A stretch of 30,939 nucleotides of DNA, from the IMG/VR virus record IMGVR_UViG_3300013126_000150, positions 1 to 30,939 of that record, one strand, 5' to 3'. Both the position numbers and the translations under genes were made by a program. Source of the stretch: a virus. The notes beneath the pieces are model-generated. The model was not told the DNA's origin. It did not search any database and worked only from the letters and a program-made list of their open reading frames with translations. Below, one piece after another: positions 3,822 through 30,939 of this stretch (the stretch's first letter is position 1; each line of letters starts with the position of its first letter).

Positions 3822-6800
3822 TTACCATTTGCAAACTGAATAAACATGTAATTTTAAATATGTTTTTAAACTTATATATTTCAGTTTCCAAGGTAAAAAC
3901 TTTAAATTTGTAAATAATAAATCGAAAACTTTTTCAATACATTCTTTGTCATCTTCATCTAAATGCAATGACATTAATTTTAATGTTTCATATGAGTAGA
4001 TTTTTTTAGCATTTCTTATTTCACCTTGTTCCACTAATTTTGCCACAGGCGACATGACTTCTTCTCTAAACTTTTTCCAGTCTATATTTTTATTTGCTAA
4101 AACTGGCCCTATTAAATCATAAATCTCTAAAGCAATTTTATCTTTGGTATTATTGGAATTTGCCATACTTTCATCACGTATTTTTCTTGCCATTTCCAAT
4201 TCGTAACAGTCATCAGCTAATCCTAACGTTTTTACTGCCGCAGTTGTTAGATAACAACCACTATCACCTCCACATGCACCTGCACCATCTGTACCCACAT
4301 CCGATAAAGCATCGTTGCATGTAGATTGTGAAGAATTATCTTGCCCAGCAGGTTCACCACCCGCATCGGTGTCATTTATGAATAGTGGACCATTATATGA
4401 ACCTACATCGTAATTAATTGATGGTGGTTCTGGAGGACCAACGGGCGAATCATCAAAATATGTTCTATCTATAGCAAAGGTATTATAACGAGTTTGTGTT
4501 GTTACACCTTTTGCTGTCGTTACTGATGGTGAATACTCTACATCCACAACTTTCTGTACAAGCCCCTGAGCATAGAATGTTGCTTGCCCATAAGTTTTTT
4601 CTGTGCCCGGATAGTTTATAAACTTAGATGATCCTAGATACTGAACATACCTATCGTCAAGTCTGAATACTCTTTCACCAACTGGGAAAAGCGCAGGCGG
4701 AACATAAAATACACCTGACACATTTCCAACTTCATCAGTTGTTATTTCATTATTATTCGATTCACCAATCGAATACACATCTCCATTTTGATATGAAATA
4801 TTACCACCCAATGTTGCAACTTTTGTGCTACCATTATATGCAGTAATTTTTACAAATCCACCATAACCGATGGAGGTCATACCTAAGAAAGAGCCTGTTA
4901 CAACATTAAAAAACATTCCAGTATAATAATCATTCGTAGAAGATGCTTTTGCATCAAGTGTGACCAAATTTGTTGCAAGTGATGGTCCGGCTGGAGAATT
5001 AATTTTACCCGCATAATGGGTTTGTGTGATATTAGATGCGCTTACTGATGCTGAAGAAGAAACATAAGTTCCTGATGCGTCAAAGGTAGCATTATATAAT
5101 GTTGTAAATGAACCTGTCGTATAAGATGTTGAATCTAGGTCATCGATCACATATAATATTTGTGAAGTTGACGAAAGATTTGTAACACTTAAAACTTTTC
5201 CAGTTTTTACAAATGTTGTTGATGTTGGTTTATATCCAACAACATCTCCTGCTCTAAATTGCCCAGTAATACTTGTACATCTTAATACATTAGGTCTTCT
5301 TATGAGCCTAGAAACTCTCGCATCATTGAAATAAGCATTTACTTTCGTGTTTGTTTTGAAACCTGTACCGACAAATTGAATTTGTTGTTGTCTTATATAT
5401 GAAATAAGTGAGACATTCGTAACATAAGTTGCAGTTAAATTGTTTGTTAAACTATAATTACCATAATAATCTGTTGCGCTTCTTGATTCCGAGATTGCTC
5501 TGTATCCAGTATATTGTGTTTCATATACTTTTTCACCTGTAACTTTTGTTCCAGGTATGGACTGCCAATCGCCTTCTTTCACCAATTGAAGATTGTTTAT
5601 TGATTGATATGTTCTTAGATTTGGATCAACAAAAAGAAGAGAGGGGGTTCTTACTGTCTCGACCCAATTATCCATTGGAGGGGAAAGTTCAATAAATCCT
5701 TCCACATTCCAAGAAGAAAATGCATTTACATCTTGACTTCGACTTGCAAGAGTTTGTTTGACAATTGCCTCTTCTGTGTAAGGTAAAGTTATAATGAACG
5801 AGTTACCATTTTTATGTAACTTATATCCTGCTGCCGTCTGCGCTGCTGAAGAAAGCGCACCAAAATTTTTATTATTAAGCGTAGCAGAATTTATAAGCTG
5901 AAAGTTTCTAATATTTTTTGCAGATTCAAGAACACCCTTGCGTGTGTTTATTGCGGCCAAAAAGTCATCATTAAATGTATCTGCAACACCAAATGTGGAA
6001 AAGTTATCAACTAGTAAACCATTTTTAAATCTATTTAAACCAAGCGCATCAGGTATTTGTAGTGTTGAACTATTTTGTTCAAGTAAATTCAAAGTTGAAT
6101 AATACTCAATATTATTGATTCTTTCGTTCAATGTGGTAATATCTTTCATTTGCCAATTCTTGTGTTGAACTGGCACAATTGAAAGATTAGAGACAGTTGT
6201 AATTATTTCATTTGGTACAAATGCTGTATATGGATCGTGTGTGAGCCTTGCAACTACCAATCCATTTGATGGGTCAGGAGGAAATTGTGGATTTATGGCC
6301 GGTACACCTTCTGCTAGAACAAACTCAGCATCTTTTGTAAGCGTAAGTAAATCTTTTCTGCCAAGATAGAAACTATAATCATTTGTAAATGCTGAGGTGT
6401 CAATCGGTAATAATGAACCGTATTGGTTGGTGCCTGTCGGTGTTACACTATATTTAAATGTGAAATTACTTGACGCATTTATTCTCGATGGTCTAAAATC
6501 AATACAGTCTCTTAACTGGTATGTTGTATTTTTCGAATTTGTATATGATGGTAATTGTGTATAAGTTTCATTTGTATATGAATTTACGCTAAAGTAACCA
6601 TCACCACCACTGTGCGCATAGAAATCAAAAAGTATCCATAGCCCACCCACCTTTGGTGCACCGGATCTTATACGAATATTTGCATGATCATAAAATGAAT
6701 CTCTCTGCCCATTATCAAAAATAAAATTTGCAGTTACATCTTTTGAAGTGTCTGAATAGTCAGCAAGAACAGGAGTAGCAACACCAACATTGATAATTTT

Positions 6801-9149
6801 TCTTATACGTTTAACGTCTGTTACATATAAAGATTGTGGTGTGACATACCCATCAACAGGAGGATTTGGAATGTAAATTTGCCCTTTTACCAAATCGATA
6901 TAAACACCATTGACGATACCTGAAGCGCCTGCTATACCTAATGATGTTGTGTCGGCTTCGACAAGTGTCTTGGTTCTTCTGATAACAGAAGTGTTGTCTG
7001 CATCTATAACATTAACTTTTGCAAATACTGTACCATCAAATGGATCCAAATCAGATGCGAAGAATGTTGCAATTTCTTTACCTGCATCAACAGTAACTGT
7101 TCTCGTAGGTGAATTTGTGAAATGAACAATATCACCTTTTGCAATCGTTGAATTTGTTTTTGGATCTGTTACAATCACAATGAAATTTTCTTTAATTGAT
7201 TCTGCCGATTCGGTCGAACCTGTTCGTATAAAGTTTACAACAGAACTAAAGGATCCGGACATTGAAATTTGCCCTTGAATACCGCCCGTTGTTGTACCAA
7301 AAGCAGTGCCTCTATATTCCTGAAGTGTTTGATATGAAGTGTCCGACATAGTAGAGACATATGATTGCCCAACCTCAAAAATCATCTGAGGTTCATCACT
7401 GTCTGCTAGAACTGTTGGGCTACTTAATGTTGCAGGGCTTCCTGATTTACCTAAAACGTCTATTGTTGCTTGCCCATACATTACCAAGTTTGAAGATATA
7501 CCTGGAGCCGCTTTAATTATCGAATTGATATTGTTGATACCAAACTTAAGTGTAAAGTTTGTTGCTGTTGTTGGTGTAGTAGAGAATGGTGCATCGACTG
7601 TTGCCGTTTTTGTCGAACCATCATACTCAATAATGTTTCGAATGTCACCTTGCCCCGGTCCACTTGTTAAAATAATTGATGTGCCCGTGTAAATGTTAGC
7701 TTTTGGGCTAAATTTATTTACGTTAGTATCGTAAAAAGTTATTGTCGTTGCAGTTGCTGAAGTCGCATTACTCTTCAATTCTTTTGAGGTGATATCAAAA
7801 ACGTGCGCTCTGTAAATGTATGAGATTGTGTTTGTTGAATCGGTATTACTTGACCCCTGATATTGAATACTTCGTACTCTACCGTTAGCTGCAACTGTTG
7901 ATGTATATGCAATCGTTGTCTGTGTATTGACTGTTTCTACGTTACCTAAATGGAAATCTACAAGATCACTTTGAGTGAAATCAATGAATGAACCGTTTGC
8001 ACCAAGTAAAGTATCGACATAGAAGTAAGTGCCATAACTTGGATTTATAGTATTATTGTTAACGCTTGCAGTTGTTCTTGCTCTGTTGCCATCTATTCTT
8101 AAACTGTACTGGTTTTCTGCTCTATACCCTTGTACATATGCAACACCAGGACCAGCTGTTAGAATATATTTGTCTGTGCCACCTGGAATAGTATTTGCAT
8201 ATGCATCGATTTTGAAATTCTTGACGATGTAATCACCGTTGGTTTCGTATGTTCGTTTTGCAAAGTAGTCATCAATAGCTGAGTAAGAAGTTTCATTTAC
8301 TTGTCTTACAATAGTGCCATTTTCAACTCGAACAAGTTCAATAAAGTTTTGATCATTAATAGTTGTATCTGTCAATGACTTTGTGGTAAGATCAAGCGTG
8401 ATTGTATAACGGTCTGCACCTGGAGCCTGATAGTTTGTTGCACCAATTGCAGGATCAAGTAATGAAGCATCAGTTACATAATCACTTATGAATTCGGAAA
8501 TTTCTAAACCAACACGCACATTTGGTGTATTTGTATACTTACCAAGTACGATAGTTTGTGGTTGAACTTGTACAAAATTTCCAATACTGTATTGTGAATA
8601 TGTTCCATCTGGATTTTGAACAGATGAATAGTTATATCCATTTACAACATAAAAAATGCCGTTTGCAATTGATGCAACTGATGCAGTACCAACGGCATCT
8701 GATGCAATAGCTTGTGCTATTGATGAGGATGTTTGTGAGATAACATTAGAACCATTTGCAAATTCGCCACCAGAATAATAAGTTACAATCAGTGTTGGAG
8801 GATCAGTACCTACTGTTTCTTCTGTTGCTATAACCTGCGCAAAAATTGTTCCTGTATCATCAGTAATAACTTGATTTAAAAAGTCTGCTGCCGTAACGTC
8901 ATTGTCTTGAAATGTTGGGTTTAATTTAATATACTTTACTTTGGTATTGATCGTTACATTCCCACCTTTAATCGGTGTATTTTGATTAAAGAAATGGTCC
9001 GCAAAATTACTAATTTGATTTTGCAGAATCGTCTGAGATTGTGTTAGTTCTCTTCCTTGAACTGCTCGCCCAGGCCTAAAGAGAATTCTATGAAAATTTT
9101 TATTAGGATCAAAATCGTCGTAATAAGGATCTACATTAAAATTAAGCAT
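3822..9149 (-). CDS. Giant DUF4815-type virion protein with CFI-box-like C-terminus, 1775 aa
   Basis: The N-terminus (YYDDFDPNKNFHRILFRPGR, then AVQGRELTQSQTILQNQI) is the signature I know from DUF4815 phage proteins, large baseplate/tail proteins of T4-like cyanophages. The long middle is Thr/Ser/Asn-rich and beta-strand-like, typical of a fibrous or peripheral baseplate component. Near residues 1595-1632 there is a Gly/Asp/Cys-rich linker, then a C-terminal domain starting CYLTTAAVKTLGLADDCYEL followed by ARKIRD. This resembles the CFI-box C-terminal domain (CxxTTAxxxxxGxxDDCYEL...LRxFRD), whose function is unclear. The last ~45 residues are Leu/Lys/Trp-rich and probably helical. At 5328 bp it is the longest gene here and lies between gp8 and the 560-aa gene. 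Confidence 0.85.
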   Translation of the reverse strand: MLNFNVDPYYDDFDPNKNFHRILFRPGRAVQGRELTQSQTILQNQISNFADHFFNQNTPIKGGNVTINTKVKYIKLNPTFQDNDVTAADFLNQVITDDTGTIFAQVIATEETVGTDPPTLIVTYYSGGEFANGSNVISQTSSSIAQAIASDAVGTASVASIANGIFYVVNGYNYSSVQNPDGTYSQYSIGNFVQVQPQTIVLGKYTNTPNVRVGLEISEFISDYVTDASLLDPAIGATNYQAPGADRYTITLDLTTKSLTDTTINDQNFIELVRVENGTIVRQVNETSYSAIDDYFAKRTYETNGDYIVKNFKIDAYANTIPGGTDKYILTAGPGVAYVQGYRAENQYSLRIDGNRARTTASVNNNTINPSYGTYFYVDTLLGANGSFIDFTQSDLVDFHLGNVETVNTQTTIAYTSTVAANGRVRSIQYQGSSNTDSTNTISYIYRAHVFDITSKELKSNATSATATTITFYDTNVNKFSPKANIYTGTSIILTSGPGQGDIRNIIEYDGSTKTATVDAPFSTTPTTATNFTLKFGINNINSIIKAAPGISSNLVMYGQATIDVLGKSGSPATLSSPTVLADSDEPQMIFEVGQSYVSTMSDTSYQTLQEYRGTAFGTTTGGIQGQISMSGSFSSVVNFIRTGSTESAESIKENFIVIVTDPKTNSTIAKGDIVHFTNSPTRTVTVDAGKEIATFFASDLDPFDGTVFAKVNVIDADNTSVIRRTKTLVEADTTSLGIAGASGIVNGVYIDLVKGQIYIPNPPVDGYVTPQSLYVTDVKRIRKIINVGVATPVLADYSDTSKDVTANFIFDNGQRDSFYDHANIRIRSGAPKVGGLWILFDFYAHSGGDGYFSVNSYTNETYTQLPSYTNSKNTTYQLRDCIDFRPSRINASSNFTFKYSVTPTGTNQYGSLLPIDTSAFTNDYSFYLGRKDLLTLTKDAEFVLAEGVPAINPQFPPDPSNGLVVARLTHDPYTAFVPNEIITTVSNLSIVPVQHKNWQMKDITTLNERINNIEYYSTLNLLEQNSSTLQIPDALGLNRFKNGLLVDNFSTFGVADTFNDDFLAAINTRKGVLESAKNIRNFQLINSATLNNKNFGALSSAAQTAAGYKLHKNGNSFIITLPYTEEAIVKQTLASRSQDVNAFSSWNVEGFIELSPPMDNWVETVRTPSLLFVDPNLRTYQSINNLQLVKEGDWQSIPGTKVTGEKVYETQYTGYRAISESRSATDYYGNYSLTNNLTATYVTNVSLISYIRQQQIQFVGTGFKTNTKVNAYFNDARVSRLIRRPNVLRCTSITGQFRAGDVVGYKPTSTTFVKTGKVLSVTNLSSTSQILYVIDDLDSTSYTTGSFTTLYNATFDASGTYVSSSASVSASNITQTHYAGKINSPAGPSLATNLVTLDAKASSTNDYYTGMFFNVVTGSFLGMTSIGYGGFVKITAYNGSTKVATLGGNISYQNGDVYSIGESNNNEITTDEVGNVSGVFYVPPALFPVGERVFRLDDRYVQYLGSSKFINYPGTEKTYGQATFYAQGLVQKVVDVEYSPSVTTAKGVTTQTRYNTFAIDRTYFDDSPVGPPEPPSINYDVGSYNGPLFINDTDAGGEPAGQDNSSQSTCNDALSDVGTDGAGACGGDSGCYLTTAAVKTLGLADDCYELEMARKIRDESMANSNNTKDKIALEIYDLIGPVLANKNIDWKKFREEVMSPVAKLVEQGEIRNAKKIYSYETLKLMSLHLDEDDKECIEKVFDLLFTNLKFLPWKLKYISLKTYLKLHVYSVCKW

Positions 9150-18333: not shown

Positions 18334-19095
18334 TCACATTAATGGTATAGGTGTGCTTGTTCTTGGATGTCGATGCAAATTAAACAGAAGTCTGATTAAT
18401 TCCATCGATCCTCTTGCATCAGTGACTATTACTCCAGAATTCAATGGAGCAAAAACACTTATTGCAGAAACTATTGGTCCTAGAGTTTCAACACCTAAAG
18501 TTGAAAATAATTTAAATCCGGCCGTGACATTTTGCGCTGACGTAATTGATTGTTTTGCCGCAATCAATCCACCCACATTTAAATCACCATTTATATTAAC
18601 ACCACCTGCGGCAGTAAGTGAAATTTCACCTGTGGCGGATCCAGCTATAATATCCACATCACCATCTGAACGAATTCTAACATCTTTTGCTGAAATCCGA
18701 GAATTTCCTAAAACAGTTTGAAAACAATCCTTTTCTACCTGAGTATATGCATCACCTTTGATATTCAGTACAGAATCGCCTTCAACTGTAATATTGCACA
18801 CACCTTTAATCAAAACATTGTTATTTTTAGCAATGATTTCATATTTATCTGCAACTATTTTGTATATTTGTTGCCCATTTGATTGAATTTCTGTAAACGT
18901 ACCGGTCCTGTGCTGTAATCTCACTCTTTCTGCACCGGGAGTATCATCCATTTCAAATGTATGCCCAGATTCCGTCTGAATAACTTGATTAAGTGGATAT
19001 TTTGCATCCCAGTCGGATGCTGGCTCAGTCCATGAGTAATCACCTGCGGGCTTTAGATTAAAATACTGTTCTTCTTCTTTTGCTTGACTTGTCAT
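18334..19095 (-). CDS. Central spike (gp5 C-terminal-like) with HRH tip, 253 aa
   Basis: Residues ~38-65 (VIQTESGHTFEMDDTPGAER, then VRLQHRTGT) are the typical entry into the beta-helix needle of gp5/VgrG/gpV-type spikes. Residues ~70-175 are short-period strand repeats (KYEIIAKNNNVLIKG, DVRIRSDGDVDIIAG, EISLTAAGGVNINGD), as in the triple-stranded beta-helix. The C-terminus has HRHP (HRH at 241-243); HxH motifs bind an iron ion at the tip of several phage spikes (P2 gpV, phi92 gp138). It would form the membrane-piercing point below gp5. In T4 this part is the C-terminal domain of gp5; here it is a separate gene 2 bases after the OB-fold gene. Confidence 0.82.
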   Translation of the reverse strand: MTSQAKEEEQYFNLKPAGDYSWTEPASDWDAKYPLNQVIQTESGHTFEMDDTPGAERVRLQHRTGTFTEIQSNGQQIYKIVADKYEIIAKNNNVLIKGVCNITVEGDSVLNIKGDAYTQVEKDCFQTVLGNSRISAKDVRIRSDGDVDIIAGSATGEISLTAAGGVNINGDLNVGGLIAAKQSITSAQNVTAGFKLFSTLGVETLGPIVSAISVFAPLNSGVIVTDARGSMELIRLLFNLHRHPRTSTPIPLM

Positions 19096-19097
19096 GA

Positions 19098-20126
19098 TTA
19101 AGGTTTCCCATAAGTTTTTGGATTTGCTAATTGTTGCGCTGATTCTGCTGCTGCTCTACCATTTGCAACTGTCGTGATAGCTGTATTTGTCGTTGAAATT
19201 ACATCAGAAACTAAACCTTTAAATTCAGAAACTATTCCCGTATTTGAACCTCCCGATAGAGTAAATGACAATGCTGAAAGTAATGAATTTTGTAATGTGG
19301 CTAAACAATCCTGAAGCATTTTTAGTAAATATGCAGGTAAACTAAGTAGCCATGCGATCATGAGTCTTACTAATGTTATATATTGGGTGATGACTAATAT
19401 TACATCGTTAAAGAAATTCAATATTTTTTGTATTGTCCTGACAAATGCTCTCAGAGATTGAATTACACCTCTTATTTCAGTTGCAATTGTGCTACCTGAA
19501 GTAGAATCTGTGAGGGTTTGAACTGCTCTGATGGCGGCTTGAACAATTGCCAAGTCTTTAAGTGCTTTGATTGCTTCCTGAAACCTAATATTGTTTCTGA
19601 TATCACACACATGCGCACGATTATCATCAGATTTCTGTACACCAGTGCCCTTTTTGGTATAAACAAGCGCAGGTATTGTTGGGCTTCCTGGGCGCATTAC
19701 TTTCTGCGCAGGAGTGTCTGTGTATACAATTGGTGTATCACTTTTTGCGGCAGCCGCTACAGCAGGATCATTGTATCTTTTAGCATATGCAGAAAACGCT
19801 CTTGGTGTTTCATCGACAATATCATCTTGTGGAATTGAGACAAAAACACCTGTAACAACTGGTGCTTGTTTACTTTCTCCATCCAGAAAGAACCCCGTTA
19901 CCCAAGTGCCTTCGATTGGTGCGCTAAAACTTTTTCCAAAATTTGGTGAATATGCTACTGTGGCCCATGGTAAATTTTCTGTTGGCAGTTCATCTAGATT
20001 TGATGTGTGTGAACCGTAAATTCTAACTTTACATCTACCAGCATTTAGTGGATCTTCATGATTTTCTATAACACCAATCCACCAATTTAATCCATCATCA
20101 CCTAATTTATTTTTAAAATAATCCAT
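19098..20126 (-). CDS. 5: Baseplate hub gp5-like OB-fold protein lacking lysozyme, 342 aa
   Basis: Residues ~12-97 (LNWWIGVIENHEDPLNAGRC, KVRIYGSHT, LPWATVAYSPNFG, GTWVTGFFLDGESKQAPVV) form the gp5/VgrG OB-fold that sits on the hub trimer. T4 gp5 continues into a T4-type lysozyme domain and a spike; neither is present. Instead residues ~100-170 form a linker ending in VCDIRNNIRFQEAI, and residues ~180-342 are helical and hydrophobic (IQKILNFFNDVILVITQYIT, LSLPAYLLKMLQDC). The spike is the next gene. The start shares a base with the preceding stop (TAATG) and a GAGGT Shine-Dalgarno lies upstream. Confidence 0.82.
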   Translation of the reverse strand: MDYFKNKLGDDGLNWWIGVIENHEDPLNAGRCKVRIYGSHTSNLDELPTENLPWATVAYSPNFGKSFSAPIEGTWVTGFFLDGESKQAPVVTGVFVSIPQDDIVDETPRAFSAYAKRYNDPAVAAAAKSDTPIVYTDTPAQKVMRPGSPTIPALVYTKKGTGVQKSDDNRAHVCDIRNNIRFQEAIKALKDLAIVQAAIRAVQTLTDSTSGSTIATEIRGVIQSLRAFVRTIQKILNFFNDVILVITQYITLVRLMIAWLLSLPAYLLKMLQDCLATLQNSLLSALSFTLSGGSNTGIVSEFKGLVSDVISTTNTAITTVANGRAAAESAQQLANPKTYGKP

Positions 20127-22203: not shown

Positions 22204-23288
22204 TAGTAACCTTCTTCGATTTTATTTTTATCGATGATAACTATTTCTTTAAATTGAAGTGACAATCTCGTTTGTACGGCTGATCCATCATTAAAAGTTG
22301 CCCATCCATTCGGTGCATAATCGACACTAATATTTTCCAGAACACACTCACCAATTCTATGAACATTTTTATTTTCCGCACCCTTGTAGAAAAAATTTAT
22401 GTTAAAGGTATCTGGAACTTTCAAAAACATTCCCTGACTAAAAAACGCTGTAGGATTTATTTCTGGTGCAGATGCGCTTTTAAATGCCTTTATGATTGCC
22501 TTAACCTGTTCTGCTTCTTCTTTACTTGATGGAGACAGAAGAAAATCAAATTGAAATGATCTAAAGCCTACACCTCTGAATAAAACTTGCAATTGTTCAT
22601 TCACTGCTTGCCCAATCTGTTTAAGAGCCAAATCTGGTAAATTGGATGTACCAAGTCTATTTTGTGCAAATTGCGACACAATTGTGCGCACAAATGGATC
22701 AGAACCGACTTTGTTTGCTATTCCATTTGCGTCTGTTTGCCCGCCCCCACCTTTGACATAATCAAATACAGAAGAACCAAGTTGTGCAGCGAAATAAGGT
22801 TTACCAAGAGATTCTGTTAAAGATAATTCATTATAACCACTTGAATATATAACATTTAATGTATCTGGAACATATAAACTTATCGTTGTAGAATCTTGCC
22901 TGACGACATCCAGTACCTTAAGCGCATCCAATACATTTTTAACATTTTCGGCTTGAAACTGTTGTGGAATTTTACTAACTGCATCTGTAATACCACTGAC
23001 TGTTGGGGTTGAAGTTACAGACTGCGCAGTATTTGCTGCAATATTTCCAATATTTATTGCAGCATTCAAAAAATTTGTTCCAAGTTGTTGTGTTGGTTGC
23101 TCAGATTGTGGTGCAGGAGTTCTTATCGTGAATCTAATTACATGTGCCCTAGCAGGATTTGCTCCTAAATCACTTGGATAACGATAAGTGCTTAATTGGT
23201 ATTTGTTACCATAAAGTGCTTTAAGTGGACCATTGACGGCACCAGGAATTGAAATACCTGCTATATTTGTTGGTATAGATATAGGCAT
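22203..23288 (-). CDS. 48: Baseplate tail-tube cap, gp48-like, 361 aa
   Basis: The motif YRYPSDLGANPARAHVIRFTI (in part) near residues 36-55 is the conserved opening of gp48/tube-cap proteins in cyanophage-type T4-like phages. Tube-fold signals come later: FRGVGFRSFQFDFLLSPSS, the EEAEQVKAIIKAFK helix, and FLKVPDTFNINFFYKG with ISVDYAPNG. T4 gp48 (364 aa) caps the hub and starts tube growth together with gp54. An Ala/Gln/Thr-rich insertion lies at ~60-110. The first gene of the minus-strand operon, it starts 32 bp from the divergent gp4 gene. gp54 is the main alternative. Confidence 0.75.
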   Translation of the reverse strand: MPISIPTNIAGISIPGAVNGPLKALYGNKYQLSTYRYPSDLGANPARAHVIRFTIRTPAPQSEQPTQQLGTNFLNAAINIGNIAANTAQSVTSTPTVSGITDAVSKIPQQFQAENVKNVLDALKVLDVVRQDSTTISLYVPDTLNVIYSSGYNELSLTESLGKPYFAAQLGSSVFDYVKGGGGQTDANGIANKVGSDPFVRTIVSQFAQNRLGTSNLPDLALKQIGQAVNEQLQVLFRGVGFRSFQFDFLLSPSSKEEAEQVKAIIKAFKSASAPEINPTAFFSQGMFLKVPDTFNINFFYKGAENKNVHRIGECVLENISVDYAPNGWATFNDGSAVQTRLSLQFKEIVIIDKNKIEEGY

Positions 23289-23315
23289 GATTATCTTTTT
23301 TAAATGGATTATATA

Positions 23316-23323
23316 TATTTATG
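23316..23323 (-). promoter_or_regulatory. Likely late promoter CATAAATA for the baseplate operon
   Basis: CATAAATA (minus strand) fits NATAAATA. By T4 spacing transcription would start near 23310, giving a ~22-base leader for the gp48-like gene. The box overlaps the ATG of gp4 on the other strand. The 32-bp divergent gap also contains an AT-rich run that may serve gp4, but no plus-strand box is clear. Confidence 0.5.
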
Positions 23324-23788
23324 TCTTATTCCGGCAGATTTCTACCAAAAAATCCTCAAAAATACAGAGGTGACCCCACAAATATAATTTATCGTTCTAC
23401 CTGGGAATGTAGAGTGATGAATTGGCTTGATCAAAATGAATCAATTATAGAATGGGGATCAGAAGAAATAGTTATTCCTTATCGATCTCCAGTGGATAAT
23501 AAAATACACCGTTATTTTCCAGATTTTTACGTGAAAGTTAAACAAAAAGATGATATAATTAAGGTTATGATATTGGAAATTAAACCTGCAAAGCAAACAA
23601 AACCTCCAGAAAAGAAAAAAAAGATCACAAAGCAATACATTAATGAAGTTGTTACGTGGTCAATAAATCAATCGAAATGGAGAAGTGCTATTGAATTTTG
23701 CAAAGATCGAAAGTGGAACTTTTATGTTGTTACCTCTAACGACGGAAGCAGTTTTAAATTGTTAAATGAAAATCAATTCTTAATATAA
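23321..23788 (+). CDS. 4: Head completion protein gp4, TnsA/PD-(D/E)XK nuclease fold, 155 aa
   Basis: The start MSYSGRFLPKNPQKYRGDPT followed by IIYRSTWECRVMNWLD is the gp4 (gene 50/65) family opening; T4 gp4 is 150 aa. The protein has the TnsA-like nuclease pattern: Glu29 in the first helix, HRYFPDFYV with Asp68, and ILEIKPAKQ with Glu86 and Lys88, so the PD-(D/E)XK residues are intact. gp4 acts in head completion after DNA packaging, before tail joining. There is no Shine-Dalgarno; the leader is AT-only. The conserved N-terminus fixes the start. It is the first plus-strand gene, divergent from the baseplate operon. Confidence 0.92.
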   Translation: MSYSGRFLPKNPQKYRGDPTNIIYRSTWECRVMNWLDQNESIIEWGSEEIVIPYRSPVDNKIHRYFPDFYVKVKQKDDIIKVMILEIKPAKQTKPPEKKKKITKQYINEVVTWSINQSKWRSAIEFCKDRKWNFYVVTSNDGSSFKLLNENQFLI

Positions 23789-23859
23789 TTTACATTTAAT
23801 GCTTCTGACATTTTTTGATTAAAATTGTCATAATAGGATTGACTAAAAAATAATTTCAT
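23773..23859 (-). CDS. Candidate 28-aa small protein, antisense to gp4 end
   Basis: A short frame, MKLFFSQSYYDNFNQKMSEA and eight more residues, starts at 23859 and ends at 23773, overlapping the last 16 bases of gp4 in the opposite sense. It has a strong Shine-Dalgarno (GGAAGG, four bases before ATG) and an AATAAATA box 28 bases upstream of the ATG. The gap between gp4 and the glycosyltransferase gene would otherwise be empty. The peptide is aromatic and polar with no membrane helix. I do not recognise it; the translation signals are the only support. Confidence 0.45.
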   Translation of the reverse strand: MKLFFSQSYYDNFNQKMSEALNVNYIKN

Positions 23860-23887
23860 GTTACCTTCCGTTCAGATATTTTTTATG

Positions 23888-23895
23888 TATTTATT
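23888..23895 (-). promoter_or_regulatory. Likely late promoter AATAAATA before the 28-aa ORF
   Basis: AATAAATA on the minus strand fits NATAAATA. Expected initiation near 23882 would give a ~22-base leader containing the GGAAGG site, a sound layout for the small ORF. Confidence 0.42.
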
Positions 23896-23901
23896 TTTTA
23901 T

Positions 23902-23922
23902 GAGGATAAAATGATAAAATGA
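23902..23922 (+). promoter_or_regulatory. Three-codon leader cistron overlapping the glycosyltransferase start
   Basis: ATAAAATG occurs twice in tandem (23906-23913, 23914-23921), giving two ATGs 8 bases apart. The GAGG site (23902-23905) is well spaced (5 bases) for the first ATG but 13 bases from the second. The first reads Met-Ile-Lys-stop, and its TGA overlaps the second ATG, which starts the long gene. Reinitiation may set the expression level of the enzyme. Confidence 0.4.
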
Positions 23923-25682
23923 TTAGATTACATGTATTAGCAGTTCCACATAGCGTATCAACTAAAGAGTACCTAGTGTGCGCATTTACACAAAAAGTTA
24001 TTAATTTTTGTAAAATGTTTAAAGATGAAGGTATGCACGTAATTCATTATGGGCATGAAAATTCTGATGTTATTTGTGATGAACATGTCACAGTTATGAC
24101 ACAGGATTTACTTGAAAAAGTCTATGGCGTTTATGATTGGAAGAACCGAGGGCTCCGTTACAATCAAAATGATGAAGTATTTAAAACATTCAATGAAAAT
24201 TGTATACGAGAAATAGCAAAACGAAAACAACCACATGATATTATTCTTTGCTTTTTTGGTGTAGCACAGAAACCAGTATGTGATGCTCATTCAGATTTGC
24301 TCTGTGTTGAACCCAGTATTGGTTATCCTTCACATTTTGCTCCATATAAAGTTTACGAATCATATGCGGTGATGCATGGATTACAAGGGCAGGAAAAAAT
24401 CTCCAATGCAGAATATAAGTTCTATGATGCGGTAATACCCTCTGCATTTGATTTTTCCGAATTCGATTTCAAAGATTGGAGTCAAAAAGAAGATTATTTT
24501 TTGATGTGTGGCAGAATTACGTGGTCAAAAGGTGTCTCAATTGCTGCTCAGGTCACAGAAAAGATTGGCGCAAAACTTATTTTAGCAGGGACAACCGATG
24601 GTCCAAGTTATTGTGAATTGGGCAATGAATGGCCAAAACATGTTGAGTATGTTGGTTATGCTGATGTTGAAACAAGAAGGCGTTTAATGTCTGGTGCAAA
24701 AGGGTTATTCTGCCCAACAATTTACAATGAACCTTTTGGTTATGTTGCAATTGAGGCAATGCTTTCAGGTACACCAGTTATCACAGTAGACTGGGGTGCA
24801 TTTACTGAGACTGTTCAGCATGGGGTAACTGGCTATCGATGTAGAACATTTGAACAGTTTGTATGGGCAGCAAAAAATATCAACACAATTTCACCATATG
24901 CTTGCCGACAATGGGCCACCGAAAACTATAACTTCAAAAAAGTCGGCAAAATGTACCGAGAATATTTCGAATCAATTATCAATGTTTCAAAGGGTACAGG
25001 TTGGTACACAGAAAATAATGAAAGAACGGAATTGGAATGGCTTACGAAAACACAACCAAGAGATCCCAAATCGTTCAAAGAAATACTGAATTGGTACAAT
25101 GAAAAGAAGGAAGGAAAATTAAAATTTTTGCAAATAGGTGCAATGGATGGGGTAAGTCATGATGAGCTTCATTCGTATGTAATGTGCTTTGACTGGGAAG
25201 GTGTTTTTGTTGAACCTCTACCTGATATGTTTGATAAGTTGGTGGATAACTATAGTCAGAAATATGGGCTTGAATTTGAATGCGCAGCCGTAACTGAGGC
25301 TGACGGAGAAACTGAAATATATCGGGTGCCACCGGGAACAGAAAATGTAGAAGACTGGATGTATGGTTGTTCCACTCTTGTTCCGGAAAAACATCTTGAA
25401 TATGTACGCCCTCTGATGGTCAAAGAAAATGTTAAGACAATATCTCTTAAAACTTTGGTTGAAAAATATCATTTGCAAGATGTTAATTTTGTTCAAATTG
25501 ATACTGAAGGTTATGATTTCAAAATCTTTATGCAAATGGAGGGCTTGATAAATCCTGATTTACTTAAGATTGAAATTGCACATATTACATATACCGATAC
25601 AGTATACATGAGATATACGCTTGATCAAAAAGGTTACAAGACCTTCATCGATGGTTACGATTTAATAGCTTACCGCTTCTAG
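23919..25682 (+). CDS. Glycosyltransferase (GT4-like) fused to FkbM-type methyltransferase, 587 aa
   Basis: Residues ~1-350 form a GT-B glycosyltransferase: CGRITWSKG (197-205) and YNEPFGYVAIEAMLSGTPVI (269-288) with the EX7E pair Glu271/Glu279, typical of retaining GT4 enzymes using nucleotide sugars. After a linker, residues ~400-587 carry an S-adenosylmethionine-dependent FkbM-like methyltransferase: FLQIGAMDGVSHD (403-415), GVFVEPLPDMFDKL and VQIDTEGYDFKIF (525-537). Together they could add and methylate a sugar on DNA, virion protein or host surface glycan; the target is unknown. It is a metabolic cargo gene between gp4 and tail genes, preceded by a three-codon leader. ATG 23919 is the only start that opens the long frame near the GAGG site. 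Confidence 0.88.
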   Translation: MIRLHVLAVPHSVSTKEYLVCAFTQKVINFCKMFKDEGMHVIHYGHENSDVICDEHVTVMTQDLLEKVYGVYDWKNRGLRYNQNDEVFKTFNENCIREIAKRKQPHDIILCFFGVAQKPVCDAHSDLLCVEPSIGYPSHFAPYKVYESYAVMHGLQGQEKISNAEYKFYDAVIPSAFDFSEFDFKDWSQKEDYFLMCGRITWSKGVSIAAQVTEKIGAKLILAGTTDGPSYCELGNEWPKHVEYVGYADVETRRRLMSGAKGLFCPTIYNEPFGYVAIEAMLSGTPVITVDWGAFTETVQHGVTGYRCRTFEQFVWAAKNINTISPYACRQWATENYNFKKVGKMYREYFESIINVSKGTGWYTENNERTELEWLTKTQPRDPKSFKEILNWYNEKKEGKLKFLQIGAMDGVSHDELHSYVMCFDWEGVFVEPLPDMFDKLVDNYSQKYGLEFECAAVTEADGETEIYRVPPGTENVEDWMYGCSTLVPEKHLEYVRPLMVKENVKTISLKTLVEKYHLQDVNFVQIDTEGYDFKIFMQMEGLINPDLLKIEIAHITYTDTVYMRYTLDQKGYKTFIDGYDLIAYRF

Positions 25683-25690
25683 TATAAATA
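25683..25690 (+). promoter_or_regulatory. Likely late promoter TATAAATA after the cargo gene
   Basis: A perfect T4 late-promoter consensus begins on the base after the glycosyltransferase stop. It would drive the 203-aa, tube, gp26 and tape-measure genes. Initiation by T4 spacing falls at about 25695-25697, on the start codon of the next gene. Confidence 0.5.
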
Positions 25691-25694
25691 GAGG

Positions 25695-26306
25695 ATGACT
25701 TCCACACTTACACAACTAGCAACACAAAAAACTGCACTGGAACAAGGATTCTTGTCCAGGCAGTCTGTTGCATGGTTTCAGGAAAAAATTAGAGAACTAA
25801 AAAAACAGCCAAAACAGTTGGCAGCAGAAATATTGAATGACAAAACAAGAAAGACACGTAGATTTGTAATGGGTGGGCTGTATCACTTTTTCTATGATCC
25901 TCTTATGAAAGATGGCAATAGATTGCCATATTATGATATTTTCCCTCTAGCAATACCACTACAAAAAGACATTGATGGATTTTTGGCGTTAAATTTACAT
26001 TATCTTCCTGTAAAATATCGAGCATTATTTATGGAGAAGTTAATGAATTTTGCATCATTAAATGCTGAGGATGATCCTAAGAGAATAAATGTTACTTACG
26101 ATATATTGAATGCAACAAAGAGATATAGTGAATTTAAACCATGTATTAAAAAATATTTAAATTCACAAATACAATCAAAAATTATTGCCATAGAACCTTT
26201 TGAATGGGAAACTGCTTTATTTTTACCTACTGCTATGTTTAAGGGTGCAACTCAATCTAAAATTCACAAAGAATCTATCAATAAAATAAAAGGTAGGAAT
26301 TACTAA
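25695..26306 (+). CDS. Conserved T4-like virion protein, possibly gp2-like DNA end protector, 203 aa
   Basis: The core, MGGLYHFFYDPLMKDGNRLP then YYDIFPLAIPLQKDIDGFLA and LNLHYLPVKYRALFMEKL, plus KPCIKKYLNSQIQSK and EPFEWETALFLP-TAMFKGA, is a pattern I recall as conserved in many T4-like phages. I believe it corresponds to the DNA end protector gp2 in some annotations, but I cannot confirm that; T4 gp2 is longer (about 270 aa), and its order next to 3 and 4 would fit. The N-terminal ~50 residues are a Lys/Gln-rich helix. GAGG abuts the ATG with no spacer, an unusual arrangement. The stop shares a base with the next start (TAATG). Confidence 0.7.
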   Translation: MTSTLTQLATQKTALEQGFLSRQSVAWFQEKIRELKKQPKQLAAEILNDKTRKTRRFVMGGLYHFFYDPLMKDGNRLPYYDIFPLAIPLQKDIDGFLALNLHYLPVKYRALFMEKLMNFASLNAEDDPKRINVTYDILNATKRYSEFKPCIKKYLNSQIQSKIIAIEPFEWETALFLPTAMFKGATQSKIHKESINKIKGRNY

Positions 26307-26983
26307 TGGCGGGCTCAATTGCAGAATTTAAATCAAGCTTTTCGAAGGATTTAGCAAGACCTAATAAGTTTGAGGTAGAAATACCGATTCCTATTGGAAT
26401 GATTCCTTATCTTGGAAAAGCTAGATCGCTCAGACTTAGGTGTGAGGCTGCTGATTTACCTGGCAGAACACTTGCAACGACAGAAATGAAAATTTATGGC
26501 ATTCAAGAGAAATTTCCATACATGACAAGTTATCCTGATATCACGATGACATTTATCGTTGCCGATGACATGATGGAGAAAAAGTTTTTTGATGCATGGA
26601 TCAACTGGATTAATCCAACAATAAATTACAACATTAAATACAAAAAAGATTATGCTGTAGCCATTCGTATAAAACAATATTCTGTTACAAATGAAGTTAG
26701 TTATTTTGTTGATTTACAAGATGCATATCCAATTGCAGTAAATGACCTAAATCTAGATTGGTCATCTGATGGATATCACAAACTCTCAGTTACATTTGCA
26801 TACACGCAATGGAGAAATACATCACTTGAAGCACTTGCAATGGAAGCACTTGAATATAATCTTGCAGAAATTGTAACTAATTCCACCCTTGGTTTTGATA
26901 GGGTTGATCCAGCAACACTTCTACAAGCTAATGTAAACGAATCACTTAGGGAATCTTCAGGAACTGATATAGGTCCGCTTTAA
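26306..26983 (+). CDS. Tail-tube-fold protein (gp19/gp54 family), 225 aa
   Basis: The order of motifs, ARPNKFEVEIPIPIG, RSLRLRCEAADLPGRTLATT, EMKIYGIQEKFPYM, then DITMTFIVADDMMEKKFFD, AWINWINP and VTFAYTQWRN, is that of T4-like tail-tube-fold proteins: an early beta strand pair, the ADLPGR loop, and a late FxYxxW strand. The size is between gp19 (163 aa) and gp54 (320 aa). A tube initiator such as gp54, rather than the major tube protein, is likelier because the gene lies next to gp26 and the tape-measure candidates, but this is inference. A TAATG overlap couples it to the preceding gene. Confidence 0.72.
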   Translation: MAGSIAEFKSSFSKDLARPNKFEVEIPIPIGMIPYLGKARSLRLRCEAADLPGRTLATTEMKIYGIQEKFPYMTSYPDITMTFIVADDMMEKKFFDAWINWINPTINYNIKYKKDYAVAIRIKQYSVTNEVSYFVDLQDAYPIAVNDLNLDWSSDGYHKLSVTFAYTQWRNTSLEALAMEALEYNLAEIVTNSTLGFDRVDPATLLQANVNESLRESSGTDIGPL

Positions 26984-27727: not shown

Positions 27728-27921
27728 CTTTTTGTCATGACAATCTGAGAAATTATTATAAAACTAATTTCTCTTTGATGCAGCACCACAAATATAGCCT
27801 CACTGAACTTGAAAATATGATACCGTGGGAGCGAGAAATATACATTGCAATGCTTGTACAATATATTGAGGAAGAAACCCTTAAATTAAAACAAAGACAG
27901 AGCGAAAGAAAGAATAGATGA
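27721..27921 (+). CDS. 51: gp51-like extension of gp26, reached by -1 frameshift, 66 codons
   Basis: The frame reads RLTFCHDNLRNYYKTNFSLM, then QHHKYSLTELENMIPWEREI, YIAMLVQYIEEE and a basic tail. The YYKTNFSL...HHKYSLTELE..IPWEREIY pattern resembles, as I recall, gp51-type assembly proteins of T4-like phages. No ATG, GTG or TTG exists before the conserved YYKTNFSL segment except codons inside it; the first ATG (27778) has no Shine-Dalgarno and would drop the first 19 residues. The frame is open back only to 27703, inside gp26. The stop overlaps the next start as ATGA, showing the frame is translated. The product is probably gp26 fused to this domain. A sequencing indel in the six-T run is the alternative. 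Confidence 0.65.
   Translation, partial: RLTFCHDNLRNYYKTNFSLMQHHKYSLTELENMIPWEREIYIAMLVQYIEEETLKLKQRQSERKNR
27732..27773 (+). promoter_or_regulatory. Inverted repeats downstream of the slip site
   Basis: A perfect 12-bp palindrome TTGTCATGACAA (27732-27743) is followed by a perfect 9-bp stem GAGAAATTA / TAATTTCTC (27747-27755, 27765-27773) with a 9-base loop. These could form RNA structure that stimulates slipping, though the larger stem begins 25 bases after the heptamer, farther than usual. It would also hide the region before ATG 27778. Confidence 0.45.
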
Positions 27922-29582
27922 ACTATTACGAAGCAGCAAAAGTAAGAGGAACAAGCTTCGGAGATTTAATGAGACAAAAACTCATTTCTGGTGAAGGAGT
28001 TTTTTCTTCAATTCGTTCATCGTTTTCAGATAGAAAATTAGCTAAAAAGATAGGTAAAAAAGAAAAGTTTGACATTTTAAATATCGCAAAATTTTTAACC
28101 GGAGGTAGTACGTTAGCGCCTGTATTGGTGGGAAAATTATTGGGGCGATCAAAAGAAGATATTGAATACTTTAGTGGTATAAAAAAGAGAAAAACATATA
28201 CAAGACAATCATCATCGATGATTGAAAGAGTTTTGAGTAATAAAAATATGTCATCGGATAGTGAAGCAGTGCCAGTTCTAGAAGAAATATTCACTGTACT
28301 CAAACAAACTGAAGAAGAACGTGACCTAGAATTTGAAACATTAAAAGCTTTTGAAAAGGTACAAGCTAATCTAGAAAAGGATCGTCATCAAGAAGTAATG
28401 AATGTCTTTATTCGCGCTATTCGTAAAAAGAGGCGCGATTATATGAAATCTGGAAAGATTCAAATTGCACCCAAAAAGATGGGCTTAGATAAATTTTTAA
28501 CTGGTGGTTTGTTTGCGCTTGCTGGTGGTGCAGCATTTGCATCAATAAAACCACCTAAAGATGAAAAGCCTGAAATGATGCCTCCTTCTCCTCCAACACC
28601 TGATATAACACCCGAAAAACCATCAGATGATTTTGCTCGCCCGGTGGGTGTACGCCCCTCAACACCATTGAATCCGCCGGCCGTTTCAGAACGAGATATT
28701 CAAACCGGCGCTAGTACCTATACACGATTTGGGGAACCTGTTCGTCGCCCAACAGTCACACCTGTAGACTTGACTCCGCAACAAACTGCAACAAATATGA
28801 ATTTTGCAGAAAGAGTTGCACAAATATCAATCTTTGGAGAAACTGGTGTTAGAGGCAGAACACAAGCAGAAAAGAAAGTTGGGCAAGTAGTAGAAAATGA
28901 TCCATCACCTGGGGTATTTTCTTATGGTATTTTTGGTATGAACAGCGGATCTGGTTCTATTCAACGTTTTGTTGCAGGTAATCCTCAATTTGGATTTACT
29001 GCAAAACCAGGAACACGAGAATTTAATGAAGAATGGAAAAGAATTTCCGAAAGTAGAAGTAAGGAAATGTATGAAGCGCAATTACTTTGGTATCAAGGTG
29101 CAATATTAGATCCACTTAAAAAACAATTGGCAAATATATTACCTGACAATCTTGCAAAAGATGCGCGAGTCATTGCATACTTTGCTGATCGTCGCATTCA
29201 GTATGGAAATGTAATGGAAAAAAGCGCAATAACTTATTCACTTTCAGCTAAAACGCCAGAAGAATTTTTGCAAAGATTGACTGACTTTGATTTACAGAAT
29301 ATAGGCAAAGCATTCACGACATATCTCAGGAACAATCCACAAAATATAAGGGGGCTTAAGTCTAGAATACAAAATAGATTAAGTTCTGCTATGCAATTCG
29401 GTAGTGGTGATATGTTAGCTGATCGCTCTGTTGAAGAAGAAAATTTAAGAACAAGCTTAAGCGCATCATCTAGTGGACCTATAATTATTAATAGAACACA
29501 AATGGTTTCCGATGAAACATTAAATATGCCACCTCCCCCAACTAAACCTGATACAAATCCTGTACTGGAACGAAGAGGTTAA
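27918..29582 (+). CDS. Tail hub/tape-measure-like protein with lysozyme-like domain, 554 aa
   Basis: Residues 1-95 (AAKVRGTSFGDLMRQKLISG ... ILNIAKFLTGGSTLAP ... LLGRSKEDIEYFSG) are homologous to the start of the next gene. A helical region (115-175) and a short hydrophobic stretch (193-210) follow, then a Pro-rich linker (212-292). Residues ~296-490 resemble the chitosanase/lysozyme-like domain often found in phage tail proteins: ISIFGETG with Glu308 as candidate catalytic acid, PGVFSYGIFGMNSGSGSIQR (331-350), FNEEWKRI, YEAQLLWYQG and ADRRIQYGN. I infer a virion-borne peptidoglycan hydrolase for cell entry, notable because gp5 lacks lysozyme here. The start overlaps the gp51-like stop (ATGA). 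Confidence 0.75.
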   Translation: MNYYEAAKVRGTSFGDLMRQKLISGEGVFSSIRSSFSDRKLAKKIGKKEKFDILNIAKFLTGGSTLAPVLVGKLLGRSKEDIEYFSGIKKRKTYTRQSSSMIERVLSNKNMSSDSEAVPVLEEIFTVLKQTEEERDLEFETLKAFEKVQANLEKDRHQEVMNVFIRAIRKKRRDYMKSGKIQIAPKKMGLDKFLTGGLFALAGGAAFASIKPPKDEKPEMMPPSPPTPDITPEKPSDDFARPVGVRPSTPLNPPAVSERDIQTGASTYTRFGEPVRRPTVTPVDLTPQQTATNMNFAERVAQISIFGETGVRGRTQAEKKVGQVVENDPSPGVFSYGIFGMNSGSGSIQRFVAGNPQFGFTAKPGTREFNEEWKRISESRSKEMYEAQLLWYQGAILDPLKKQLANILPDNLAKDARVIAYFADRRIQYGNVMEKSAITYSLSAKTPEEFLQRLTDFDLQNIGKAFTTYLRNNPQNIRGLKSRIQNRLSSAMQFGSGDMLADRSVEEENLRTSLSASSSGPIIINRTQMVSDETLNMPPPPTKPDTNPVLERRG

Positions 29583-29585
29583 AAA

Positions 29586-30939
29586 ATGGATTATCAAGTA
29601 GCAAAAAATTTAAGAGGTCGCTCTTTTTCCTCTCTGGTAAGAGAAAAAATATATGCTGGTTCAGGTGTAAGTTCTGCGGTGGGGCGAGCAATTACAGCAA
29701 AACTAAAGGCCGCCGGGACAGGTATTTTGGAGAAAATTGATCCATTGAATGTGGCAAAGTTTGTAACTGGCGGAAGTAAATTAGCCCCTGCTATTTTAGG
29801 TAGATTGACTGGTAGATCGACACGAGATATAAGATACTTTGCTGGAGACAATCAAACAAGAAGGAGATATACACCTTTAGGTAGTAATACTGTAGGTGAT
29901 ACAGGGTTGGGAAATTCTTCAATTGATGTTTTAAATGAAATCCTTTCCTTTTTAAGAAAAAGTTACGAAAAGGAAAACGAAAGAAGAGAATTAGATAAAG
30001 CTTTTCGAGAAGAGAAACAATATGAAAGTGATAGAAGGCATAAAGAATTTATTGAAATATTAAAAACTTATACCACACTGCCCACTGCTCAAGTCGTTTC
30101 TGGCCCAGGAGAAACACCTGATAAAACTAGTGGCATTTTAGACACTATGAAAAAAATGATAGCGGCTGCTGTGGAAGGATTAAAAAAACTAATGGCAGGT
30201 ATGACTGCGGCGATCATGGCTGGTGTTTCTGCTCTGATTAAAAATGCATTAAAAGCATTTGAATGGATAAAAGATTTAAAATGGTTGAAAAATTTAAAAT
30301 GGTTGAAAGATATTACTAGCATTGGTTCCTTCATCACCTTACTCGGTAGATTTTTACCAATACTGAAATTTTTAGGGAGATTTGCTGGTGCTGCCGGGCT
30401 ATTGACATTTTTATATAGTGCATTAAAATACACTGCCAAAAATATACCTAATGCTTCTTCATTGTCACCTCAAGAGGCGTTAAATGTTTTGCAATCAAGA
30501 AATATTGAATTCATAAAAAAGGAAGGAAAGAGTGACGACCTTAAAACTGCTTATGATAATTTAAGTGATATGGTTTTATTAAGAAAATATATAGCAAAAC
30601 ATTTATTAACAAAGTTTGATGAAAACCCTGAAGATGAGGAGACACGAAAAAATATACTTGACATGGGAGGATTAGCTAAGGTTAAAGAAATTTCTGAATC
30701 ACCAAACATACATCCCAATGAAATACCATTAATAAGTGACATTTTACAATCGAATTATAGTAATATACCTCAGCCGTTAAGAAGTAGAAAACTTAGTTCT
30801 GAACAAGCTTGGATGAGAAATTTTGGTGATATATTTGATCCAGGTACATCAGAAAGATTAGGCTTTCAAGGTGAAGCATATCAAGTGCCAAGAAGATCAT
30901 ATTCACCTGCTCCACCTCCCATTTCCCCATATGAAACTG
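29586..30939 (+). CDS. Tape-measure candidate, paralogue of the preceding gene, C-terminus cut
   Basis: The frame from ATG 29586 stays open for 451 codons to the window edge. Residues 1-95 (AKNLRGRSFSSLVREKIYAG ... LNVAKFVTGGSKLAPAIL ... LTGRSTRDIRYFAG) match the start of the 554-aa protein closely. Residues ~118-165 are a charged helix; ~175-280 contain hydrophobic helices (AGMTAAIMAGVSALIKNALK, IGSFITLLGRFLPILKFLGR, AGLLTFLYSALKY), as in tape-measure proteins that pass into the host membrane. A tandem 6-residue repeat (DLKWLK NLKWLK) lies between them. A Pro-rich stretch begins near the edge. T4 gp29 is the likely functional counterpart, from position and character rather than detected homology. 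Confidence 0.7.
   Translation, partial: MDYQVAKNLRGRSFSSLVREKIYAGSGVSSAVGRAITAKLKAAGTGILEKIDPLNVAKFVTGGSKLAPAILGRLTGRSTRDIRYFAGDNQTRRRYTPLGSNTVGDTGLGNSSIDVLNEILSFLRKSYEKENERRELDKAFREEKQYESDRRHKEFIEILKTYTTLPTAQVVSGPGETPDKTSGILDTMKKMIAAAVEGLKKLMAGMTAAIMAGVSALIKNALKAFEWIKDLKWLKNLKWLKDITSIGSFITLLGRFLPILKFLGRFAGAAGLLTFLYSALKYTAKNIPNASSLSPQEALNVLQSRNIEFIKKEGKSDDLKTAYDNLSDMVLLRKYIAKHLLTKFDENPEDEETRKNILDMGGLAKVKEISESPNIHPNEIPLISDILQSNYSNIPQPLRSRKLSSEQAWMRNFGDIFDPGTSERLGFQGEAYQVPRRSYSPAPPPISPYET
30273..30308 (+). repeat. Tandem 18-bp coding repeat
   Basis: Two adjacent 18-bp units (30273-30290, 30291-30308) differ at one base and encode DLKWLK then NLKWLK, an amphipathic segment before the hydrophobic helices of the tape-measure candidate. 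Confidence 0.85.

Follow-up and report, generated by a model that had tools for sequence, protein, structure and literature searches.

A GT4-FkbM fusion gene between gp4 and gp2 of a T4-like phage and its association with collagen-like genes

Introduction

The question raised by the locus described here is which molecule is modified by a glycosyltransferase (GT) encoded among the virion genes of a phage; phage GTs tend to be filed as modifiers of the host O-antigen or of DNA (e.g. PMC7029224). The locus lies in the IMG/VR virus record IMGVR_UViG_3300013126_000150, a 30.9-kb record (30,939 nt) from a T4-like phage, the full length of which is referred to as the window. A gene encoding a GT4-type enzyme fused to an FkbM-type methyltransferase (MT) was found at 23919–25682 on the plus strand, between the structural genes gp4 and gp2.

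An earlier note on this DNA, made from the letters alone, had offered two targets for the fusion protein, the phage's own virion or the glycans of the host surface. The virion is favoured here, as the GT was found to follow collagen-like genes and relatives of it are often flanked by oxygenase and collagen-like genes, and the host surface is less favoured. The reading preferred, with a probability of about 55%, is that the enzyme decorates the phage's own collagen-like (Gly-X-Y) virion fibre, its two domains providing a GT and an optional methyl cap.

Results

The fusion gene and its two domains

The open reading frame (ORF) runs from ATG to TAG over 587 codons and encodes 587 amino acids (aa). 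The GT half (aa 1–366; 23919–25016, plus strand) was matched by the glycosyltransferase family phrog_3408 over aa 2–366 (E 2.2e-123), and the Pfam profile Glycos_transf_1 (PF00534) was matched at aa 185–311 (E 1e-16; 61.4 bits against a curated cut-off of 26.4). The FkbM domain (aa 405–574; 25131–25640, plus strand) was identified by the Pfam profile Methyltransf_21 (PF05050; E 1.5e-12; 48.4 bits, cut-off 22.7), and the C-terminal half alone scored 55.3 bits against the FkbM profile TIGR01444 (cut-off 37.7). It exceeds both cut-offs, and differs from other FkbM methyltransferases in being fused behind a GT4 domain. A Glyco_transf_25 domain was not found in the window protein in the Pfam scan.

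An alignment of 28 homologues, the window protein counted among them, was used to examine the motifs, all of which are on the plus strand. In the GT half, E271 and E279 of the EX7E motif (24729–24755) and the putative donor contacts R199 and K204 (24513–24530) are invariant in 28/28, as are, in the MT half, the GAMDG sequence (G407–G411; 25137–25151), a putative S-adenosylmethionine (SAM)-binding motif I, E432-P433, and D528, E530, G531 and D533 of the DTEGYD motif (25500–25517). The invariance was measured, and the functional roles of the EX7E pair, of R199/K204 and of the MT motif residues are those that we take them to have. The earlier claim that one polypeptide carries a complete GT4 motif set and an FkbM-type MT is borne out, the profile matches being above their cut-offs and neither the EX7E nor the SAM-binding residues having been lost in any aligned homologue.

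The fusion ORF is real and not an artefact. In 15 further viral contigs, of which four are truncated within the match, both halves were matched at 81–85% identity, and the probability of a chance open frame of this length at the composition of the window is ~2e-19 in a simple base-frequency model. Against seven relatives, and with synonymous divergence (dS) near saturation, the ratio of nonsynonymous to synonymous divergence (dN/dS) is 0.047–0.063 for the GT half and 0.064–0.118 for the MT half (or upper bounds < 0.153). A frame error joining two genes, raised in the earlier note, was rejected on the recurrence of the fusion, the continuous frames, the dN/dS values and the chance-frame calculation. 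That the FkbM half is a dead remnant was rejected on its low dN/dS and invariant motifs.

An AlphaFold model of the full protein (mean pLDDT 82.9, pTM 0.58) gives both domains with mostly high confidence and the linker at ~aa 363–380 with low confidence. When compared using VIA-align, residues 1–358 matched GT4 structures of the GT-B fold at Z ~30, with a tetrahydrobiopterin glucosyltransferase (9v0l; Z 30.4, rmsd 3.3, 318 aligned) and the alpha-1,2-glucosyltransferase tll1591 (8x3q_D; Z 30.0, rmsd 3.3, 317 aligned) tied as best; the top matches are only ~20% identical to the GT half. By its predicted fold, the GT4 half would be a retaining nucleotide-sugar transferase. The MT half shows a confident strand/helix pattern in the full-length model, the fold comparison having covered residues 1–358, whereas the model of this half alone, made without an alignment, was useless (pLDDT 40.8). 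A PDB sequence search with the MT half gave no match, and there was no methyltransferase among the VIA-align rows, a negative that tests little because the list was filled by the GT half.

Co-occurrence with collagen-like genes

Collagen repeats (PF01391; E-value limit 1e-3 in a first set and 1e-6 in the others) were sought in 62 contigs, and the GT was sought in the same 62, comprising 24 contigs (four not to the last base), a further 36, and G025 and G026 via their loci. A collagen match was found in 16 of the 22 GT-bearing contigs and in 3 of the 40 GT-less ones. Among the GT-bearing contigs with no match, the fibre gene fibA, the proposed acceptor, is cut by the contig end in G002 and G005 and absent from G006; G025 and G026 are contigs of 25.5 and 19.6 kb in which fibA was not checked; and G036 has 25 Gly-X-Y triplets in fibA that were seen by pattern only. 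Of the 42 contigs that contain gp4 and could be scored for collagen, 15 had both genes, one had the GT only (G036), one collagen only (G062) and 25 neither (Fisher p 2.5e-9, a value that ignores the phylogeny of related contigs).

In the window, fibA (1–1881, minus strand) is cut by the window end after 627 aa, and the orthologues in GT-bearing relatives carry their collagen repeats further on. Between 31 and 86 Gly-X-Y triplets were found in fibA of all nine carriers of the gp4|gp2 type whose fibA reaches the collagen region (G001, G003, G004 and G009–G014), and none in fibA of seven GT-less contigs (G007, G008, G015, G016, G019, G020 and G022). The carriers include near-copies, namely G003/G009, which look like the same phage, and G002/G011. 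The X position of the repeats is mostly Pro, and the Y position is Thr-rich in G013 and G018 and otherwise Ile or Gln.

In G018, the gp4|gp2 site is empty and fibA is collagen-free, and a 54% identical GT adjoins three collagen-like ORFs elsewhere. G029, which has neither GT nor collagen, is the sister in the gp4 tree of G028, a GT carrier discussed below, and both fall inside the clade of the window.

The visible part of the window fibA consists of tandem repeats of the type TANTQLNAGAANVIG..IANTSLLGG that run off its left end. Beside it, two ORFs on the minus strand (2116–3798 and 3822–9149) match a single ORF of ~2,080–2,190 aa in most relatives, e.g. G001; the counterpart in G019 is likewise split in two.

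Genes surrounding more distant homologues

Seven carriers have the GT outside the gp4|gp2 site (G018, G036, G040, G041, G043, G052 and G060). In all seven, a match to a 2-oxoglutarate/Fe(II) (2OG-Fe(II)) oxygenase (PF13640) was found upstream of the GT, at a distance of about 1–115 bp in five and about 580 bp in two, and in five of them a collagen match above the cut-off starts no more than 0.9 kb behind the GT. Of the other two, G018 has a below-cut-off match at 0.8 kb and above-cut-off matches from 2 kb, and G036 has no PF01391 match behind the GT. The oxygenase-GT order is repeated in L182, L186 and L204. The oxygenase was not found beside the GT of the window, where the neighbours are gp4 and gp2, and the 166-kb relative G001 has PF13640 genes, none of them beside its GT.

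Homologues outside the gp4|gp2 clade were grouped into 25 clusters (90% clustering; fetched flanks of 1.5 to 8 kb), and the flank of 18 contains an unbroken series of 10 or more Gly-X-Y triplets. As several of the 25 clusters are the same contigs as the carriers with the GT elsewhere, these lines of evidence overlap. Homologues are also carried by nine contigs from bacterial metagenome-assembled genomes (MAGs), and a Gly-X-Y run lies near the GT in all but one of the eight titled Bacillota, Firmicutes or Hydrogenispora. In two contigs of Bacillota/Firmicutes MAGs (L407:4708–7128 and L404:4944–7137), the GT is 46% identical and comes after a gene with a BclA_C domain and collagen repeats, and the other ORFs of L407 look, by eye, like ordinary chromosomal genes. 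The same GT4 was found fused behind a GT25 domain at L019:5326–7140, adjoining a UvdE-like gene; GT25 is the family of collagen galactosyltransferases.

The methyltransferase half as a module

The MT half, METHYLTRANSFERASE, behaves in sequence comparisons as a module that is absent, replaced or apparently exchanged among relatives. A tree of the GT (57 rows) requires 6 changes among three states (FkbM, other MT and none), and its starred branches force at least 4 changes for FkbM and at least 5 for none; the long branches, among them L019 and L188, are uncertain, and the tree was built from plus-strand matches only and does not include the GTs of carriers L367–L370. L184/L185 carry, fused at this position, a methyltransferase from a different family (PF13489).

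The GT halves of L013 and L016 are 99.5% identical and their MT halves 79%. DNA identity is 90–100% in the windows upstream (one at 82%), 73–82% across the MT half and 93–99% downstream, such that at L013:5265–6014 the MT half is far more diverged than both flanks of otherwise near-identical contigs. This is apparently the pattern expected from cassette (block) exchange, and as L013 is a contig of 6.8 kb, a chimeric assembly is possible.

A conserved tail or linker follows the GT (GTGWY..R.ELEWLTKTQP; 24993–25064, plus strand) and is common to the GT-only alleles and the bacterial homologue L407. It need not be read as the scar of a lost MT in the GT-only alleles, because a similar WLTK tail is present in L019 and L407, where no MT follows the GT.

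A second FkbM gene was seen in one stretch of G001 (117084–123398, minus strand; loci L135/L136), together with genes for HtrL_YibB and for a family 2 glycosyltransferase.

The site between gp4 and gp2 and other genes of the window

The minus strand of the window carries baseplate and fibre genes, and the plus strand gp4, the fusion gene, gp2, tail tube and hub. The left neighbour of the fusion is a gp4-like head completion protein gene identified by profile matches (23321–23788, plus strand), and the right neighbour is a gene for a gp2-like DNA end protector (25695–26306, plus strand) identified by a PHROGs match. The window gp6 was compared with phage records, and those listed first were Pelagibacter phage HTVC008M (42.4%) and Methylophilales phages (41.5%).

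The gap between gp4 and gp2 is empty in some relatives and in others contains the GT alone or the fusion. Among 74 gp4/gp2 loci with no GT match, gp4 adjoins gp2 in 70, and the other four miss one of the genes (gp4 in L030 and L031, gp2 in L092 and L109). The earlier statements that the fusion interrupts conserved virion genes and that it is a cargo (accessory) gene are thus supported by its presence or absence between the structural genes of relatives. The 29 loci compared include 4 GT-only genes, 5 that run off the contig and 20 fusion-type genes. One continuous frame was found in 17 of these 20 (15 of 587 aa and 2 of 585 aa), and complete fusion alleles span 585–590 aa; in L053, L054 and L056 the GT frame is interrupted, with assembly error and decay not distinguished. 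The GT-only alleles L043, L046, L047 and L051 are of 381 aa and end after the tail GWYT..R.ELDWLTK, and further GT-only alleles exist.

Immediately after the fusion stop codon, and before gp2, lies TATAAATA (25683–25690, plus strand), a motif of the [AC]TAAATA type that we take to be a T4-type late promoter. This motif was found no more than 110 nt upstream of the conserved gp2 region in 70/70 empty, 4/4 GT-only and 25/26 fusion loci, the single locus lacking it being L053, whose gp2 match is broken. As it precedes gp2 in nearly all loci of the three states, the cargo is placed between gp4 and the motif.

The fusion gene had also been said to have a leader of its own. This is true of the window, where a 130-nt spacer (23789–23918, plus strand) separates it from a gp4 gene with an altered 3' end, but not in general: the spacer was not found in 12 other carrier contigs, where gp4 and the GT share a 4-nt stop/start overlap in 11 and are separated by an 11-nt gap in one (G012). 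A promoter within the spacer was rejected, because the 18 sigma-70-like matches in 23000–26500 are about what chance would give (16.8) and relatives lack the spacer.

Elsewhere in the window, a gp5-like hub is encoded by two ORFs (18334–20126, minus strand), with an OB domain at 19098–20126 and a trimerisation domain at 18334–19095; both Pfam matches are below the cut-off and a lysozyme domain was not matched. Tandem ORFs at 27918–29582 and 29586–30938 (plus strand) match the same two ORFs of G001, and the first encodes a VgrG3-like C-terminal domain (PF21277).

Discussion

The proposed acceptor and mechanism

If the collagen-like fibre is the target, the GT4 half would add a sugar to it, either on Thr or on hydroxyproline made by a 2OG-Fe(II) hydroxylase. 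Hydroxyproline is a candidate acceptor as X is mostly Pro and relatives carry oxygenases. The fused FkbM half would then O-methylate the added sugar, capping or diversifying the glycan. The fibre would be glycosylated before or during virion assembly, and the benefit may lie in fibre stability, receptor binding or shielding. The gene is an optional cargo between gp4 and the putative late promoter of gp2, and its MT half behaves as an exchangeable module.

Several observations weigh against a collagen-like acceptor. The collagen segment of the window itself is not visible because fibA is cut; in the gp4|gp2 clade, the GT lies ~20 kb from fibA with no oxygenase beside it, and the best structural matches of the GT half act on small molecules or sugars. 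The collagen repeats of this clade are mostly GPI/GPQ, and Thr makes up 5–14% of the Y residues in seven contigs, is missing from them in G004 and reaches ~77% only in G013, so that acceptor residues would be scarce unless proline is hydroxylated. Collagen was found with no GT in G062, G027 and G045 (the last two being contigs without gp4), and G037, where a cut fibA has 24 triplets by pattern and the GT was not seen, was entered as having neither. In G028, the GT is at gp4|gp2 and the collagen match is in an ORF other than fibA, which has none. No long Gly-X-Y run was found in the flanks of 7 of the 25 homologue clusters (L178, L181, L184, L188, L368, L399 and L402), a short locus being a clear limit only for L368, and the neighbours of L188 look, by eye, like sugar-metabolism genes. 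When independent pairs were counted on the gp4 tree, ~3 agreed and 0 were opposite (p 0.25), a test that is not significant because there are too few independent cases. The controls are weak. A Gly-X-Y run was found in 0/74 GT-less gp4/gp2 loci, where the fibres are ~20 kb away, and in 1/30 fibA loci of GT-less contigs versus 4/7 of carriers; the figures for random 16-kb windows (0/660 in GT-less contigs versus 68/540 in carriers) only restate the co-occurrence, because the GT-less contigs sampled were all free of collagen.

Alternative explanations

Modification of host surface glycans (lipopolysaccharide or capsule), blocking superinfection or altering receptors, remains the main rival, though an unlikely one; the collagen link would then be a by-product of shared ecology or of fibre islands. 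GT4 and FkbM enzymes are common in glycan pathways, and the GT of L188 lies in a different neighbourhood. This is also the usual reading of phage GTs, and the GTs of pelagimyophages are assigned to O-chain modification in PMC7029224. However, it predicts neither the collagen link in phages and Bacillota nor the oxygenase-GT-collagen order, and no GtrA/GtrB-like Pfam match was found among the 20 ORFs scanned in the window, which is a fragment.

Somewhat less probable again is that the enzyme acts on a different virion protein, or on fibA but in its T/S/N-rich non-collagen repeats rather than its Gly-X-Y segment. Those repeats could be the real acceptor, which also counts against the collagen-like segment; most contigs in the clade have little Thr in their Gly-X-Y segments, and mycobacteriophage capsid proteins are reported to be glycosylated (PMC11256854, citing Freeman et al. 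2023). But as the seven GT-less contigs have a fibA that is free of collagen, the portion of fibA associated with the GT is the collagen one.

It is improbable that the product is a small glycoside or a free methylated oligosaccharide. The structural matches 9v0l and 8x3q_D point in that direction, but at ~20% identity a shared GT-B fold does not show the substrate, and no link to a fibre would be expected. The thymidylate synthase family (PF00303) includes dCMP hydroxymethylase. A DNA base glycosyltransferase, conceivable as T4-like phages glycosylate hydroxymethylcytosine (PMC6024577), is disfavoured and highly improbable, PF00303 having been matched in 0/15 related contigs, several of them fragments, compared with 9/14 control genomes; in the window, itself a fragment, 20 ORFs were covered.

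Relation to known systems

Both domains, glycosylation of phage virions and glycosylation of collagen-like proteins are already known. The closest known phage systems are those of the cyanophages S-CAM7 and ACG-2014f (phrog_3408, which PHROGs lists as a moron glycosyltransferase), whose GTs are 52% and 48% identical to the GT half. Like the carriers described here, they have collagen-like or fibre genes and a 2OG-Fe(II) oxygenase near the GT, the oxygenase being one gene behind or directly behind it, but they have no MT half. None of the 55 matched phage records covered at least 80% of the query in one place, in searches that did not include the MT half alone.

The remaining comparisons are by description. 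In Clostridioides difficile, the SgtA gene is directly beside the gene for the collagen-like BclA3, and SgtA adds a sugar to Thr in the collagen repeat region; it differs from the window protein in that the sugar is beta-O-linked GlcNAc and its N-terminal GT domain is paired with a different second domain (PMC7157674). Mimivirus R699 is a virus-encoded collagen glucosyltransferase (galactosylhydroxylysyl), but comes from an amoeba virus and acts on galactosylhydroxylysine (PMC9546862). In the phage repeats, Lys is not among the commonest X/Y residues, except for 3% in G013. Mycobacteriophage GTs are also thought to decorate their own virion, but there the target is a capsid protein in another phage group, and no fusion is mentioned in the part of PMC11256854 available. 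In a limited literature search, no description was found of a phage GT-FkbM fusion, of a modular MT, of the collagen association of this GT family or of its activity on collagen-like fibres.

A broader and more tentative proposal, which we hold with less than even confidence, is that this GT4 family is a dedicated system for glycosylating collagen-like proteins in Bacillota (BclA-like genes) and T4-like phages. It would travel either as oxygenase-GT-collagen-fibre units or as a fibre-tracking gene at gp4|gp2, with a swappable MT capping module (FkbM, another class or none) varying the glycan coat of the fibre between near-identical phages.

A GT family that tracks collagen-like genes in environmental T4-like phages as well as the BclA-like genes of Bacillota offers a concrete and testable acceptor. 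If the proposal is true, these phages glycosylate their own collagen-like fibres and, in the clade of the window, perhaps methyl-cap them, which would bear on adsorption, fibre stability and recognition.

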